A stretch of 64,000 nucleotides of DNA, from the NCBI RefSeq assembly GCF_963666525.1, contig NZ_OY762905.1:4605001-4669000 (forward strand), given 5' to 3'. The DNA comes from an uncultured Cohaesibacter sp. GTDB taxonomy: Bacteria > Pseudomonadota > Alphaproteobacteria > Rhizobiales > Cohaesibacteraceae. Shown one piece after another: positions 2,731-29,133 of the stretch (within the stretch, counting starts at the first letter, position 1; every line of letters starts with the position of its first letter). The notes beneath the pieces were generated by a model, which was given only the letters and a program-made list of their open reading frames with translations, was not told where the DNA came from and did not search any database. The position numbers were made by a program, and so were the translations under genes.

Positions 2731-5700
2731 ATGCATATTCTGGCGCCCGATGCGGGGCGGATCGATGATGGACAGGAGGCTGTGGATCTGGGACAGAGCG
2801 CCGGAGACATCCTCATCCTGTCGTCCGCCGACAGCGAGCTGTCCGCCTTTGCCCTGTCGGCCCGATCCCGCTCCGACGACGCTCCCTCGCTGCGCCTTGC
2901 CAATCTCATGGCGCTTGGTCATCCCTATTCGGTCGATCTCTATGTCGACCAGACCGCCAGCCACGCACGCCTCATCATCCTGAGGCTGTTGGGGGGCGTG
3001 GAGTATTGGCGATACGGGCTTGAGCAACTCAGAAAGCTGTCCCGTGGTTATGGCGTCAAACTGCTGGTCATGCCGGGAGACGACAAGTGGGATGAAAGCC
3101 TTGCTGGCTGGTCCAGTGAACCGGTTGCCATCGTCCGTCAGTTCTGGCGCTATTGCGTCGAGGGTGGTGCCGAGAACATGTCACTGGCCTTGCGCTTTGC
3201 CGATGCCTTGTTGTCGGGGGATGGCGCCTCAGTGCCCCATCCTCTGCCATTGCCCCGCGTCGGTATTCTGAAGGGCTGCGAAAGCTTCAGTGGAGCGGAT
3301 GGGCTTGAAAGATATCTTGCCTCCATTGCCAATGAAACGACCCAAAAGGTAGTGCCGATCCTTTTCTATCGCTCCTACGTGCAGAGCGCCATGACGGGGC
3401 CAGTCGAGGCATTGGCAGAGGCTCTGGCAGCAAAGGGGCTTCATGCCCTGCCGATTTTTGTGCCCAGTCTCAAGGACCTGGAGGCGCAGGAATTCCTTGC
3501 CGCGGCGCTGACGGCGCTTCCGCCGTCGGTCATTCTCAACTGCACTGCCTTTGCCCTTTCGAAGGCCGGGCAGGCCCATGAGCCGACCATCCTTGACCGC
3601 TATGACTGCCCGGTGTTGCAGGTGATCCTGTCCGGGTCCAGCCGCAAGGCATGGGAAGACAGCCCGCGCGGACTGTCGGCCCGGGATCTGGCGATGCATG
3701 TGGTGTTGCCGGAACTCGATGGTCGAATACTGAGCCGCGCCGTCGCCTTCAAGGAAGAGGGCGCGCTCGACGAGCGGACGCAATACCGGCCTGTGGAACT
3801 CGTGCCACATGCGGACCGGATTGCCTTTGTTGCCGATCTGGCAAACGGTTGGGCCATGCTGCGCCACACAGAGGCCAGTGACCGCAAGGTCGCTGTCATT
3901 CTTGCCAACTACCCCAACAAGGATAGCCGTATCGCCAATGGCGTCGGTCTTGACAGCCCTCGGTCCGTCATCGGCCTGATGCAGGCGATGCAGGCAGAAG
4001 GATACTGTGTCGAGGGTATTCCCGCCGACTCGGACGCCCTGATGCAGCAGATCCTTTCCGGCCCGACCAATGCGCAGGGCGCCGCTATCAGGCAAAGCGA
4101 CCACCGGTTGGACCTGAGCCTCTACAAGCAGATGTTCGCAACGCTGCCAGAGGCAGTTCGGGCGGGTGTCAAGGCCCGCTGGGGTGCACCGGAAGCGGAT
4201 CCGATGGTCCGGGAGGATGCCTTCCAGCTCGCCATCCTCGGTTTCGGCAACCTAGTGGTCGGCGTACAGCCAGCCCGCGGCTACAATATCGCCCCCAAGG
4301 ATACCTACCACGATCCGGATCTGGTGCCGCCGCATAACTATTTCGCCTTCTATTTCTGGCTCCGGCATGTCCATGGCGTGCATGCCGTCATTCATGCGGG
4401 CAAGCATGGCAATCTGGAATGGTTGCCGGGCAAGGCGCTGGCGCTGAGCGAGACCTGTTATCCCGAGGCCGTGCTTGGCCCTGTACCCCATCTCTATCCG
4501 TTCATTGTCAATGATCCGGGCGAGGGATGTCAGGCCAAACGCCGCACAGGTGCCGTGATCATTGATCACCTCACCCCGCCATTGACTCGAGCCGAGAGCC
4601 ACGGAGCAGGGGAAGAGCTTGAGGCGCTGGTGGATGAATTCTACACCGCGCAAGGGGTCGACCCGCGCCGCTCGGACAAGTTGATGGAGGAAATCCGCTT
4701 TCTGGCCAGCCGGACCGGCCTCGACAAGGACGCTGGCGTCAGCATTGACGTCGACAACCGGACGGCTCTCCAGCAGCTCGACGCGCATCTGTGTGACATC
4801 AAGGAGCTACAGATCCGCGATGGCCTGCATGTGCTTGGCGCTTCGCCGCTCGGTGGCTATCGGACTGATCTGCTTGTGGCCATTGCCCGTGTGCCACGAG
4901 GCTCTTTGCCCGCCCAGCAGTCACTGCACCGGGCCATCAGTCAGGATCTTGGTCTGACTGTGGCTGGTGAGGTATTTGACCCGCTCGATTGCTTCTTTGC
5001 GCAGGCGTGGGATGGTGCGCGGCCAGTCCTGCTTGCCAAACAGTCGGAGGCTCTCTGGCGGCATTGTGGCGATACCGTCGAACGGATTGAGCTGTTGGCC
5101 AAGGCATTGGTGGCAGGAGACTTGGATTGTCCATCCAGCATGGAGGCGACCCGGGCCGTGCTGGACTGGATCGGTTCCGATCTGGCTGCGGCAATCGATG
5201 CCTGCGGGCCGCAGGAAATGCACCATCTTCTTGCCGGACTTGCAGGGCGCTTCGTGCCGCCCGGTCCGTCGGGAGCGCCGACCAGAGGGCGTCCCGATGT
5301 TCTGCCCACCGGACGCAACTTCTTCGCCGTCGATGTGCGCTCCGTGCCGTCAAAGACGGCCTGGGCCATCGGTGAACTGTCTGCCCAGCGGCTTATGGAG
5401 CGCCACTTTCAGGATGAGGGCGAATGGCTTCAGGCCATCGTGCTGACCTGTTGGGGCACCTCCAACATGCGCACCGGTGGCGACGATATCGCTCAGGCAC
5501 TGGCGTTGCTTGGCGCGCGTCCCGTTTGGGAGGCCGCGTCGGGGCGTGTGACGGGGGTTGAAATCCTGCGCCTTGAAGAGCTGCGCCGCCCGCGAGTGGA
5601 TGTGACGCTGCGCATTTCTGGCTTCTTCCGCGATGCCTTCCCCCATCAGATCGACCTGTTTGACAGCGCTGTCAAACAGGTGTCCGAGCTTGATGAGGAC

Positions 5701-7145: not shown

Positions 7146-7244
7146 AAGAAATGCGGAGGTACAGTCGCTTTTCTGTGCCCAAGGGTCGATGGGTCTTTGA
7201 GCCGAGTTGACATGGCATCAAGACACCCATAGACAGAATATGTT

Positions 7245-7450
7245 CGATGGTTTTTCTCGTCCTGACGTGACGCGAAAATGAAAAAGGGAACATGGTGAGG
7301 TCGACCAAACAGGGACCAAAACCATGGCTGCCCCCGCAACTGTGAGCGGTGAGCTTCCACCCGAAATATGCCACTGGCGCGATGCGCTGGGAAGGTTCGG
7401 ATGGACAGCCAAGACCCGCAAGCCAGGAGACCTGCCATCAGACAGGCGCG
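7245..7450 (+). promoter_or_regulatory. Cobalamin (AdoCbl-class) riboswitch 2
   Basis: Conserved elements are AGGGAACATGGTG (near 7285), GGCTGCCCCCGCAACTGTGA (7326-7345), CCACTGG (near 7371), GGGAAGG (near 7389) and the B12 box AAGCCAGGAGACCTGCC (7420-7436). It lies in the 455-base gap between cobO and the cobalt-transport genes. It is close in sequence to riboswitch 1, especially in the core. The 160 bases between the aptamer and the next ATG hold the expression platform, but no T-tailed terminator was found there. Confidence 0.95.
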
Positions 7451-7600
7451 TGCTGAATTTGTCAGCCGTCGCTGCTCTTAACAAGACGCCGGGGTGTGCG
7501 TTTGGTGGAGATGGTCTGGTGGTTTCTTCATGCCCCAGCAAATCCCTTGCCTCCATTCCCAAAGCGTCTCCAACCAGGCTATGCCTGAGGGAGATGATTT

Positions 7601-25844: not shown

Positions 25845-26708
25845 TTATCCGACAGAGGCAAACAGAAGCAGCCCGATGCCGAAAAAGATCTCCCCGACCT
25901 GTTGCGACGCACCAAGCACATCACCGGTCTGGCCCTTGATGTGATGATCGGCCAGCCTGGTCATCATCAGGCAGGCCAGAATGATCATCACGAAAGAAGA
26001 AACCCCGGCGGCCAGCCCGAATACGGGAACGACCATCAGCGCGGTTGCAAGGCCGCCCAACGCAATGGCGATTGTGTAGGAGGTGGTTGACGGCCGTCCG
26101 AGGCTGGCGGAAAGCCCGTTAAGGCGTGCCGCTGGCAGGGTGTGCCAGACATGCATAAGCGGAACGCGCGAGACAACCCCGGCAGCCAGATAGGCGATCC
26201 CGCCTTTGGTGACGCCATAATTCTCGAACAGGTAATAAACGATGCTGATCCGCATCAGCAGTGACATGCAAAGTGCGGTTGCGCCATAGCTGCCAAGGCG
26301 GCTGTCTTTCATGATTTCCAGCTTGCGGGTGATGGTGTGCCCACCCCAGAAGCCATCTGCGACATCGGCAAGGCCATCTTCGTGCAGCCCGCCGGTAACA
26401 ATCGACATGGTGACGATGGTCATGCACGCCAGCAGGAAAGATGGCAACGGCGACGTCCAGGCAAGGGCGTCAAACAGGGTTGCCGGAATAAGGGCCAGAA
26501 ACGCGAGAATCAGACCGATGATCGGCATCGCCCGAGAGGTGCGCCGCATTTTGGGCAGATCCTGACTGGCCTTGCCAAGAAAGGTCGGAACCGGCAGACG
26601 CGTGAAGAAAGCCAGCGAATCCAGTATGTCCTGCCGCCACAACATCAGAAATCTGATAACCTGCTTGATCGGAGACGGCTTTCCATTTGGCGTGGACATT
26701 TCGGACAT
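25845..26708 (-). CDS. cobS: Cobalamin synthase (adenosylcobinamide-GDP ribazoletransferase)
   Basis: A 287-residue integral membrane enzyme (CobS of Salmonella nomenclature, CobV of Pseudomonas) that joins adenosylcobinamide-GDP to alpha-ribazole (phosphate). The hallmark is GGLHEDGLADVADG at about residues 106-119, within a strongly hydrophobic protein. The start at 26708 is preceded on the minus strand by a strong AGGGGGA; a longer in-frame start would add 36 unlikely residues. It is divergent from cobT, whose product supplies its alpha-ribazole phosphate substrate. Confidence 0.94.
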   Translation of the reverse strand: MSEMSTPNGKPSPIKQVIRFLMLWRQDILDSLAFFTRLPVPTFLGKASQDLPKMRRTSRAMPIIGLILAFLALIPATLFDALAWTSPLPSFLLACMTIVTMSIVTGGLHEDGLADVADGFWGGHTITRKLEIMKDSRLGSYGATALCMSLLMRISIVYYLFENYGVTKGGIAYLAAGVVSRVPLMHVWHTLPAARLNGLSASLGRPSTTSYTIAIALGGLATALMVVPVFGLAAGVSSFVMIILACLMMTRLADHHIKGQTGDVLGASQQVGEIFFGIGLLLFASVG

Positions 26709-26967
26709 TTGATCCCCCTGGGGAGCTTTGGTGGCAATTGCGTATTGCTCAGCGTCGGGACGCTCATTATACCTCGTTGCGAGATTGATCTGAAATGAGC
26801 AAATTCGGCAAGGCAAGGCAAGTGCTTTTCACGGCTGTGTGCCATTCAGCTGAGTCCGCTGTGCACTTCATCACTGCAGCGGCTGTGAATTCGGATTGGC
26901 AAGATTTCTGCAGCGTTGCCAAAGCTGGGCGGCTGCAGTCCAGACAGAGAAATGAAGGTAGTCCAAA
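26709..26967. promoter_or_regulatory. Divergent region between cobS and cobT
   Basis: A 259-base region that must carry promoters for both genes. I searched it for B12 aptamer elements (B12 box, GCAACTG core) and found none, so these nucleotide-loop genes appear not to be under direct riboswitch control here. Confidence 0.5.
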
Positions 26968-27981
26968 ATGATTTCCACTTCTTCCGCCCTTCCTTTTGAC
27001 GATATCCTTGCGCTGCTGGACAAGATGCCGGCCGCAGATGAGGAATTGCGCGCCAAGGTGCGTGCTCGCGACGCTCAGCTGACCAAACCTGCCGGTTCTC
27101 TCGGAAAGCTTGAAGATCTGGCCGAATGGGTTGCTGTCTGGCAGCACAATGAAAAGCCTCAGATCCTGCGCCCGCTGGTAGCTGTCTTTGCCTGCCAGCA
27201 TGGCATTGCAAAGCACGGTGTCTCGGCGTTCCCCAATGAACTGAACCAGATCATGGTCGATAACTTCTCTCAGGGTGGAGCCGCCATCAACCAGCTCTGC
27301 ACGGCCTTCGATCTGGGCCTGAAGGTTTTCGATCTGGCAATCGAACATCCAACCGGAGACATCACGGTTGAGCCAGCCATGTCCGAGAAGGACTGTGTTG
27401 CAACCATGGCCTACGGCATGGAAGCGATCGCGGGTGGCACCGACCTGCTCTGCCTTGGTGAAATGGGCATCGGCAACACGACGATTTCCGCTGCCATTTT
27501 CTGCGCCCTGTTTGGGGGGACGGCTGCTGACTGGTGTGGTCGCGGTTCAGGGGTTGACGACAAGGGTCTGCAGCTCAAGATCGACCTCGTCAACAAGGCA
27601 CTCGATACCCACAAGGACTATCTGGACAAGCCGCTGGAAGTTCTGGCTCGTCTCGGTGGTCGTGAATTCGCAGCCATGTGTGGCGCGGTCATTGCCGCTC
27701 GCCTCAACAACGTTCCGGTGATCGTTGACGGTTTCAACACCACCGCCGCGGTTGCTGTACTGCACAAGCTTGATCCGCGTACCCTTGACCACTGCATCTT
27801 CTCTCATTGCTCTGCTGAGGGCGCTCACCGTCGTGCACTCGATGCAATGGGCAAGACTGCGATTGTTGATCTTGGCTTCCGTCTCGGCGAGGGCACAGGT
27901 GCCGCCGTTGTGGCTGGCCTTGCCAAAGCTGCCTGCCAGATGCACAACGGCATGGCAACCTTCGCCGACGTCGGGCTCTAG
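26968..27981 (+). CDS. cobT: Nicotinate-nucleotide--dimethylbenzimidazole phosphoribosyltransferase
   Basis: A 337-residue CobT (CobU in Pseudomonas nomenclature) that makes alpha-ribazole 5'-phosphate, the lower ligand of cobalamin. It has TKPAGSLGKLE at residues 36-46, CLGEMGIGNTT in the middle, and the C-terminal GEGTGAAVV segment that carries the catalytic glutamate. A GAAGG element precedes the ATG. It should not be confused with the aerobic chelatase subunit of the same letter, which is absent from the window. Confidence 0.95.
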   Translation: MISTSSALPFDDILALLDKMPAADEELRAKVRARDAQLTKPAGSLGKLEDLAEWVAVWQHNEKPQILRPLVAVFACQHGIAKHGVSAFPNELNQIMVDNFSQGGAAINQLCTAFDLGLKVFDLAIEHPTGDITVEPAMSEKDCVATMAYGMEAIAGGTDLLCLGEMGIGNTTISAAIFCALFGGTAADWCGRGSGVDDKGLQLKIDLVNKALDTHKDYLDKPLEVLARLGGREFAAMCGAVIAARLNNVPVIVDGFNTTAAVAVLHKLDPRTLDHCIFSHCSAEGAHRRALDAMGKTAIVDLGFRLGEGTGAAVVAGLAKAACQMHNGMATFADVGL

Positions 27982-28022
27982 GTCCATCGGTCGGTTATCG
28001 CCACCAGATAGGCAAATCAATC

Positions 28023-28048
28023 AAAAGCCGGCTTCATGCCGGCTTTTT
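28023..28048 (+). terminator. Rho-independent terminator after cobT
   Basis: A perfect nine-pair stem (28024-28032 with 28038-28046, including AT pairs) and a TTCAT loop lead into a T-run at 28044-28048. It closes the cobalamin region. Confidence 0.88.
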
Positions 28049-28130
28049 CTTTTGGGTCATCCTGTGCATTTCATGGTGAGCCGATATTTACAGGGCCGAG
28101 GCAGGCTGATAGCGTTCAATGGCTTATCCA

Positions 28131-28232
28131 TGTTCAGCTAGGGTTCCGCTGCTTGTGCAGGTCTGGACCGAGCGCTGCTATGAGCCCGAGTGGGCAGACA
28201 CCTGAAAGACGAAAAATCTAGGGGGGATGGAC
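28131..28232 (+). promoter_or_regulatory. ykkC-class riboswitch candidate
   Basis: The leader of the EamA gene carries the core strings of ykkC RNAs in order: CTAGGGTTCCG (28138-28148), a small stem-loop (28149-28160), TCTGGACCGAG (28162-28172), a second stem (28183-28186 with 28192-28195), then an ACACC segment, an A-rich loop (28211-28216) and a G-run (28221-28226). A hairpin at 28228-28255 overlaps the 3' end and could be the expression platform. ykkC RNAs sense guanidine, ppGpp, PRPP or other nucleotides according to subtype. The subtype cannot be decided by eye. Confidence 0.75.
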
Positions 28233-28278
28233 AAGGCACGTAACTCGTGTGTCCAAACCAATCGTTTAAAGGTATTCC

Positions 28279-29133
28279 ATGTCACTTCTCGGATTTATGC
28301 TCGTGTTGGCCGCTGCTGTCTGTCACGCCACCTGGAACTTCTTCGTCAAACGCATCAATGCCGGACCGGAACTGGTCTGGCTGTTTTCCGTTATCACCGT
28401 AGTCATCTACAGCCCGTTGGCGGTTTACTTCGCCTTGACGATGGAGACGATCGATCGCGTCGGAATCAGCTTCATTGTCGGCAGTTGCATCATTCACCTG
28501 GGTTATTTCCTTCTGTTGCAAAAGGGCTATCGCACCGGTGATCTCTCTGTGGTCTATCCGACCGCTCGGGCGACGGGCCCCATGCTGTCGACCATCTTTG
28601 CCATTGTTCTGCTCGGTGAGCAGGCCACGATTCAGGGTGGTCTCGGCGCTCTGGTCATCATCTTTGGTGTTCTGATGCTGGCAGGCGGGCTCAAGGTGCG
28701 CTCGGCCGAACAGGTCACGTCGCTGTTGTTCGGTGTCGGGGCTGGAACCCTGATCGGCAGCTATACGGTCTGGGATGCCTACGCAGTCTCGGTACTGGCT
28801 CTGCCACCGCTGCTGCTCGACTACAGTTCATCGTTCGGTCGGATGCTGTTGCTGGCTCCCGTCGCTGCGAGGCGAAAGGGGTCTGTTGCCGAGATCTGGC
28901 GCAAGCACAAGCCGGGGCTTTTCGTCATCGCCATCTTCAACCCGCTTGCCTACATTCTGGCACTGGTGGCCATGACCTTCACGCCGGTGACCTATATCGC
29001 CCCCATCCGCGAAGTCAGCGTCGTGCTGACGGTGCTGCTGGGGAGCCTTGTGCTGGGAGAGGGGAACCTCAGGAGCAGGCTAACCTGGTCTTGCGTCATT
29101 CTGGCCGGGGTCTCCATTCTGGCTTCGGCCTGA
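28279..29133 (+). CDS. EamA/DMT-superfamily transporter
   Basis: A 284-residue membrane protein with about ten hydrophobic helices in two EamA repeats. The first repeat has the CHATWNFFVKR segment and the second begins near residue 145. Members of the drug/metabolite transporter superfamily export small metabolites, amino acids or cations; the substrate cannot be read from the sequence. AAAGG lies six bases before the ATG. The ykkC-class leader directly upstream suggests the cargo is the riboswitch ligand or a related compound, for example guanidinium if it is the guanidine subtype. Confidence 0.85.
   Translation: MSLLGFMLVLAAAVCHATWNFFVKRINAGPELVWLFSVITVVIYSPLAVYFALTMETIDRVGISFIVGSCIIHLGYFLLLQKGYRTGDLSVVYPTARATGPMLSTIFAIVLLGEQATIQGGLGALVIIFGVLMLAGGLKVRSAEQVTSLLFGVGAGTLIGSYTVWDAYAVSVLALPPLLLDYSSSFGRMLLLAPVAARRKGSVAEIWRKHKPGLFVIAIFNPLAYILALVAMTFTPVTYIAPIREVSVVLTVLLGSLVLGEGNLRSRLTWSCVILAGVSILASA

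Follow-up and report, generated by a model that had tools for sequence, protein, structure and literature searches.

A ykkC-fold leader upstream of an EamA exporter gene in Cohaesibacter that probably senses a molecule other than guanidine

In an uncultured Cohaesibacter sp., a gene for an exporter of the EamA/DMT family is preceded by a structured leader, and the locus raises the question of what this RNA might sense and what the exporter might carry. Knowing the ligand of the RNA would hint at what an uncharacterized exporter family carries, and as a compact single-gene case with a defined 105-nt aptamer and a likely translational readout, the locus makes the ligand question testable. The window analyzed here is a stretch of 64,000 nucleotides (contig NZ_OY762905.1, positions 4,605,001 to 4,669,000), and all positions below are counted within it unless another locus is named. 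We consider it likely that the leader is a cis-acting translational ON riboswitch with a ykkC fold, of a non-guanidine kind (subtype 2, 2d-like), that controls one EamA/DMT exporter gene. The aptamer and the gene are laid out as follows.

28127..28231, + strand: ykkC-fold aptamer domain, P0 to P0', 105 nt (RF00442 match, 33-row alignment, pair changes, RNAalifold)
28127..28131, + strand: P0 5' strand UCCAU, partner AUGGA at 28227-28231 (95.2% of cells paired; both-side changes in 4 of 5 pairs)
28135..28138, + strand: P1 5' strand CAGC, partner GCUG at 28174-28177 (99.2% paired; both-side changes in two pairs)
28138..28148, + strand: core string CTAGGGTTCCG (P1a) (sequence, RF00442 match, 33-row alignment)
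28163..28172, + strand: core string CTGGACCGAG, the P1a 3' side and then the start of the AG-bulge segment (sequence, RF00442 match, alignment)
28173, + strand: subtype marker base, C here and A in guanidine-I (C in 33/33 rows; marker as defined in the accessible text of PMC6031431)
28184..28195, + strand: P2 hairpin GCCC...GGGC (pair changes in the alignment)
28198..28202, + strand: ACACC, pocket strand, with ACACGG as its guanidine-I counterpart (five letters invariant in 33 rows)
28201..28225, + strand: P3, CCU 28201-28203 with GGG 28223-28225 and AG 28207-28208 with CU 28218-28219 (alignment, pair changes, RNAalifold)
28227..28231, + strand: P0 3' strand AUGGA (alignment, pair changes, RNAalifold)
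28279..29133, + strand: EamA/DMT exporter, 284 aa (EamA 5.9e-17; TIGR03340 6e-34)

A first-pass annotation, made from the letters alone, had read a riboswitch of the ykkC class ahead of an EamA exporter, and this reading is borne out by the RF00442 match (E 3.8e-6), the alignment and the EamA gene at 28279. The core strings that it listed, the stem between them, the ACACC at 28198-28202, the A-rich loop, the G-run and a downstream hairpin are all present, and to these we add the outer helix P0, predicted pairing between the Shine-Dalgarno (SD) region and the aptamer, and many relatives. The EamA protein, used as a query, returned 57 loci, 32 of which carry a leader of the same kind (type A, with R1 as its model); these 32 relatives and the window form the 33 rows of the alignment. 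The annotation had staked its reading on the core strings and pairing lasting in related species, and they do: 94.4% of cells are paired over P0, P1, P1a, P1b, P2 and P3, and 11 of the 24 pairs show changes on both sides, while a control in which the structure was slid by 1-3 columns gave 23-45% paired. Both-side changes are found in P0, P1, the P1a/P1b helix, P2 and P3; by this comparison, helices P0 to P3 are backed by compensatory changes. RNAalifold, unaided, recovers P1, P2 and P3 and independently also P0. The features of the ykkC fold are in place, namely P1-P1a-P1b, P2, P3 and the long-range C-G pair, here C28199-G28221, which closes P3 and is C-G in every row. Judged by minimum free energy (MFE), the leader on its own does not fold better than shuffled sequence (z -0.44), and the structural case therefore rests on comparison and not on energy. 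On these comparative grounds the leader is a ykkC-fold aptamer, belonging to the superfamily of the guanidine riboswitch.

The match to RF00442 (Guanidine-I) spans 28127-28226 with 40.9 bits in a 359-base scan, and no other Rfam model of this fold matches the leader. In a scan of the whole 5.2 Mb genome, the leader is the sole RF00442 match at E up to 10 (E 1.2e-5). Its score lies below the RF00442 gathering score of 63, and the Rfam check proposed in the first-pass annotation thus came out split: the model does match, and the outcome that was to tell against the reading, no hit above threshold, is what one finds if it is taken literally. None of 13 type-A relatives tested reaches the RF00442 threshold, and both guanidine-I controls pass it in the same scan. 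For six type-A loci, a scan of 44 kb yielded nothing with RF00442 up to E 0.001, and four RNAs of a second group, type B, scored 41-58 bits there, again below threshold. At gathering threshold Rfam 15 shows only two cobalamin riboswitches in the window and is silent on the EamA-linked RNAs, which automatic annotation is therefore prone to overlook.

How far does the leader depart from guanidine-I? The two share the P1/P1a/P1b/P2/P3 plan, the CTAGGGTTCCG and CTGG.CCGAG core and an A-rich P3 loop, whereas the leader has marker C, ACACC in place of ACACGG and a score below the gathering threshold, and type A has CYAG (31/33) where guanidine-I has CCGG before the G-run. The AG-bulge marker base separates guanidine-I (A) from subtype 2 (pyrimidine) in the accessible text of PMC6031431, and it is C, not the guanidine-I A, in all 33 aligned rows. 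The first-pass annotation was correct that the 3' part is unlike guanidine-I, and the difference concerns the very bases that contact guanidine. In structure 5U3G these are G33, A34, G63, G64 and G81, as given in the accessible text of PMC11661666. Mapped by counting from motifs, the A34 and G63 equivalents are C in 33/33 rows, the G64 equivalent is C in 19 and T in 14, and the G81 equivalent is G in 18, the window among them, and A in 15; G33 is the only contact kept throughout. The change at G64 carries less meaning, since this base contributes backbone atoms. In place of the GG of ACACGG, which forms the pocket floor, the rows thus have C and then C or T. By these letters the leader is not guanidine-I, and because most of the guanidine-binding letters are changed, it probably senses another molecule.

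By its marker base, C, the leader is a ykkC RNA of subtype 2 and not of guanidine-I, and by the published gene-context definition it falls with the orphan subtype 2d. This group is described as standing before EamA (phn_DUF6) or TauE genes (PMC7266159, accessible text), and here the aptamer precedes an EamA gene, whose phn_DUF6 match is itself below cut-off. The subtype that the first-pass annotation left undecided can therefore be narrowed to 2, and by context to 2d, and its suggestion that another ligand is sensed holds as far as the sequence goes. When subtype 2d received its name in 2020, it was presented as an orphan riboswitch expected to lead to new biology once solved (PMC7266159, accessible text), and the literature searched, made up largely of papers outside subscription, names no ligand for it. 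As described in the accessible parts of PMC7266159 and PMC5912903, 2d has in common with our leader a ykkC fold that is not guanidine-I and an EamA transporter gene downstream. The two differ, in a comparison by description only, in that guanidine-I is named as the closest likeness of the 2d consensus (PMC5912903), whereas type A has conserved P0 flanks and ACACC; the accessible text of PMC5912903 mentions extra conserved flanks for 2a-2c only. Four Saccharopolyspora loci (L046, L048, L050, L052) have a different ykkC-like leader before the EamA homologue; it combines marker C with ACAUC, and its 3' end is guanidine-like. These leaders look closer to the 2d description than type A does, and are perhaps the published 2d form.

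Another point of comparison is the PRPP riboswitch (2b), with which the leader shares the P0 helix and much of the core. The PRPP core positions G48, C49, C75, C77, C78 and G96 (accessible text of PMC6031431), when mapped by motif, have the same base in 33/33 rows, these six being the positions compared from a set of contacts that also includes G104 and G105. Directly ahead of the G96 equivalent, 31/33 rows have A; G95 is mentioned for the PRPP aptamer, and ppGpp aptamers are described as without G at position 96 (both in the accessible text of PMC6031431). The PRPP riboswitch is reported from Firmicutes before purine genes (PMC5912903, accessible text), while here an exporter follows and the hosts are mostly alphaproteobacterial. 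For 2a-2c as a whole, the accessible text of PMC7266159 lists purine genes, amino-acid genes and NUDIX/HAD hydrolases; the gene downstream of our leader is EamA and not one of purine biosynthesis, the context that marks PRPP.

The guanidine aptamer is said to lack P0 in the accessible text of PMC6031431, and we first favored this helix as the mark of an anionic-ligand pocket, an idea that weakened as a fair share of alphaproteobacterial guanidine-I leaders proved to be flanked by a helix too. In a number of these leaders (L096, L104, L152, L164 and others), a helix GUGCAG/CUGCAC stands in P0's place. The combination of TGCAG upstream and CTGCA downstream occurs in 14 of 40 usable rows, and in two further guanidine-I leaders (L097, L172) the flanking helix is changed yet still pairs. 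A looser count of guanidine-I flanks with a run of at least 6 pairs gives 27/42, against a shuffled mean of 20.9 and maximum of 29, and is thus not above letter-shuffled flanks. With such a helix present in at least 14 of 40 guanidine-I leaders, P0 alone is no argument for an anionic ligand.

The marker base goes together with the gene downstream. All 55 C-marker RNAs stand before EamA (50 by motif; L039 and the four Saccharopolyspora leaders by the EamA protein search), and all 24 A/G-marker RNAs stand before other, mostly guanidine-type, genes: 18 for an ABC substrate-binding protein, 3 urea-carboxylase-associated, 2 TonB and 1 other. Gene labels in this tally are motif matches made by script; it runs without the type-A loci L005, L037 and L084, and for L010, L019 and L026 (type A), L099 (type B) and L139, L140 and L143 (guanidine-type) the tallied core string is from P2, the marker base being right. 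Part of the 55 were collected via EamA, and the RNA-model searches, over overlapping sets of 385, 297, 248, 10 and 398 genomes, serve as the independent test. In these searches, type-A matches of at least 88 bits occur in 26 genomes (the window genome, G160, G082, 19 more of the order, 3 of one family, and G837), and EamA is the next gene in all. In four genomes an EamA-linked C-marker RNA coexists with an A-marker guanidine-I RNA elsewhere; the former is type A in G446 and G606 and type B in G418 and G632, and the gene after the second RNA of G606 was not recognized.

Close relatives of the aptamer occur in many genera. Among the weaker RNA-model matches, at 23-43 bits, we find type B, guanidine-I RNAs and one apparent false match (L071). 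Type B came to light as five leaders found by R1 at 37-42 bits (L095, L098, L099, L101, L138), and R2, a model built from type-B leaders, added L147 and L149 among 297 genomes; the loci are L095/L144, L098/L146, L099/L145, L101/L148, L138, L147 and the 5'-truncated L149. Five R1 places without an automatic locus (G446, G550, G613, G606, G649) were all read individually, as were three of nine such places for R2. Types A and B have in common marker C, CACCC, a C.CAG string before the G-run, EamA downstream and, except in L149, a P0-like helix; they differ in P0 sequence, which is UCGAC/GUCGA in type B, and in the EamA subfamily. L149 is a natural broken copy that has lost the type-B 5' half, including the CTAGGG core, and still has the EamA gene downstream. 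As for the other 25 loci of the protein search, they comprise the four from Saccharopolyspora, 20 with no R1 match at E up to 1, and L031, from an Albidovulum MAG, where only the 3' half of a type-A aptamer precedes EamA (4854-4967 of that locus, 19.8 bits), possibly as a decaying copy. In L080, from one of the 26 genomes with a strong type-A match and from the window's genus, the EamA frame after the type-A leader looks interrupted near its start, through sequencing error or in reality.

The TIGR03340 (phn_DUF6) score of the exporter, 118 bits, lies below the curated cut-off of 288.15 for that equivalog. Six residues (H16, K24, R97, D166, R244 and E261) do not vary across 42 type-A, 6 type-B and 6 phn_DUF6-like proteins; among the phn_DUF6-like ones, four pass the TIGR03340 cut-off. 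The AlphaFold model (pLDDT 91) has a DMT fold nearest to LicB, 5i20 (which we take to be YddG), SLC35B1, CST and TPT, and this names no cargo; a search by sequence found no solved structure. We considered phn_DUF6 equivalogs as carriers of the RNA and rejected them: the 30 best TIGR03340 loci gave one R1 match, at 12.7 bits, which we take as chance. In 17 of the best TIGR03340 loci ykkC was absent at Rfam gathering thresholds, a weak test, as EamA-linked RNAs score lower. Lower-ranked TIGR03340 matches in G000, G418, G596 and G837 do carry the RNA. Gene neighborhood was likewise set aside as a cargo clue, no partner recurring across genera at riboswitch-bearing loci as called by crude ORF callers, and a search for similar plasmid DNA found none.

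The question of how such an RNA might act on its gene turns on four features around and downstream of the pocket.

28023..28047, + strand: intrinsic-terminator-like hairpin of 10 bp with a T-rich tail, between cobT and the leader (terminator scan)
28200..28212, + strand: putative anti-SD strand, ACCU 28200-28203 and AGACGA 28207-28212, within ACACC/P3 (duplex energies)
28228..28255, + strand: downstream hairpin overlapping the P0 3' strand (MFE fold of the tail)
28262..28273, + strand: SD region, UCGUUU 28262-28267 and AGGU 28270-28273 (duplex energies)

In the window, ACCU can pair with AGGU and AGACGA with UCGUUU, at a moderate -10.1 kcal/mol. Over 45 leaders the SD/anti-SD duplex has a mean of -12.16 kcal/mol versus -10.22 for permuted partners, with 0 of 5000 permutations as low and kinship left in the comparison; the controls give -6.15 (letter-shuffled) and -6.62 kcal/mol (first 20 coding nt). 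The complementarity is seen in many leaders, runs over 13-15 contiguous pairs in L036, L004, L094 and L028, and is poor in some leaders (L136 -4.6, L051 -5.1, L042 -5.2). For this and the P0' test, L093 was left out for its long leader, L039 and L080 were not caught, and nine identical leaders were removed. In type B (L144-L148, L138), GAGAUC just after P0' is, by eye, complementary to GGUCUC at the SD region.

The first-pass annotation had placed a hairpin at 28228-28255, and the MFE fold of the tail gives exactly that span. Its further claim, that the hairpin starts where the aptamer ends, needs correction: the aptamer runs from 28127 to 28231, and the hairpin shares 28228-28231 with the 3' strand of P0. 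A downstream hairpin is predicted, by eye, in each of the 45 folded leaders. Competition between P0' and the hairpin measures 0.574 versus 0.543, with 94 of 3000 permutations as high, and this weakly suggests selection for such competition. We rejected this hairpin as a terminator, a scan of 27900-28330 having reported the cobT-side hairpin and no terminator downstream of the aptamer; the scan gave two sites, one per strand over the same hairpin, and shuffles average 0.7. By its place between cobT and the leader, the terminator-like hairpin points to a separate transcript for EamA.

Comparison brings out the aptamer fold, the altered pocket bases, the gene association and the complementarity between the SD region and P3; ligand binding, the direction of switching and export of the ligand are what we infer beyond it. 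Because the SD region is complementary to ACACC/P3, the pocket and SD sequestration would exclude each other, which argues for a translational ON switch. Without ligand, the SD region would pair with the ACACC/P3 strand of the aptamer and the downstream hairpin would take part of P0', keeping translation off. Ligand binding at the junction would then stabilize P0 and P3 and free the SD region, and the exporter, once made, would remove the ligand or a related compound from the cell. An alternative to any such switch is a structured leader that serves as a protein-binding site or works by attenuation, its ykkC resemblance inherited and no ligand involved. The riboswitch case is built from sequence, which leaves room for this; yet neither the pocket strand nor the long-range pair varies in any of the 33 rows while the stems covary, as expected of a ligand pocket, and we find this alternative scarcely credible.

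Our tentative guess, held with modest confidence, is that the ligand is an anionic, possibly phosphorylated, small metabolite, because of the mapped PRPP-type core bases and the conserved basic residues of the exporter, which stand beside conserved acidic ones. We favor such a ligand over a guanidine-like cation. For 2d, a small, charged, toxic ligand has been proposed (PMC5912903, accessible text), and if the leader belongs to 2d, that proposal argues against an anion; cation transporters occur among DMT proteins, and H16, D166 and E261 are invariant across the three protein sets. However, K24, R97 and R244 are equally invariant, so an anionic cargo fits as well, and with most guanidinium-binding bases replaced, a small toxic cation akin to guanidine seems somewhat unlikely. 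Guanidine itself, sensed by a divergent guanidine-I riboswitch that switches on a guanidine-exporting DMT protein, would be in keeping with RF00442 as the sole Rfam match to the fold, but it is very unlikely given that G33 alone among the contacts is kept and that both kinds of RNA coexist in four genomes. Sensing of a known subtype 2 ligand (PRPP, ppGpp or (d)NDPs) is in keeping with the P0 helix and the six matched PRPP core bases, yet we hold it to be unlikely: none of the purine, amino-acid or NUDIX/HAD contexts is seen here, ppGpp aptamers are without the G96 that all our rows have, and A stands where PRPP has G95. In a more specific form of the anionic reading, types A and B together would make up a separate non-guanidine ykkC specificity, with a core that binds phosphate much as the PRPP aptamer does, and would respond to a phosphorylated or other anionic metabolite by switching on its export. 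This form strikes us as possible but doubtful.

The surroundings of the leader hold further features of their own. The two cobalamin riboswitches of the window lie at 831-1044 and 7231-7453 (+), above the Rfam gathering score. The window also holds cobS at 25845-26816 (-) and cobT at 26968-27981 (+), and in the neighborhood clustering the pair cobT and cobS is common only to the window and the Cohaesibacter loci L001 and L002.
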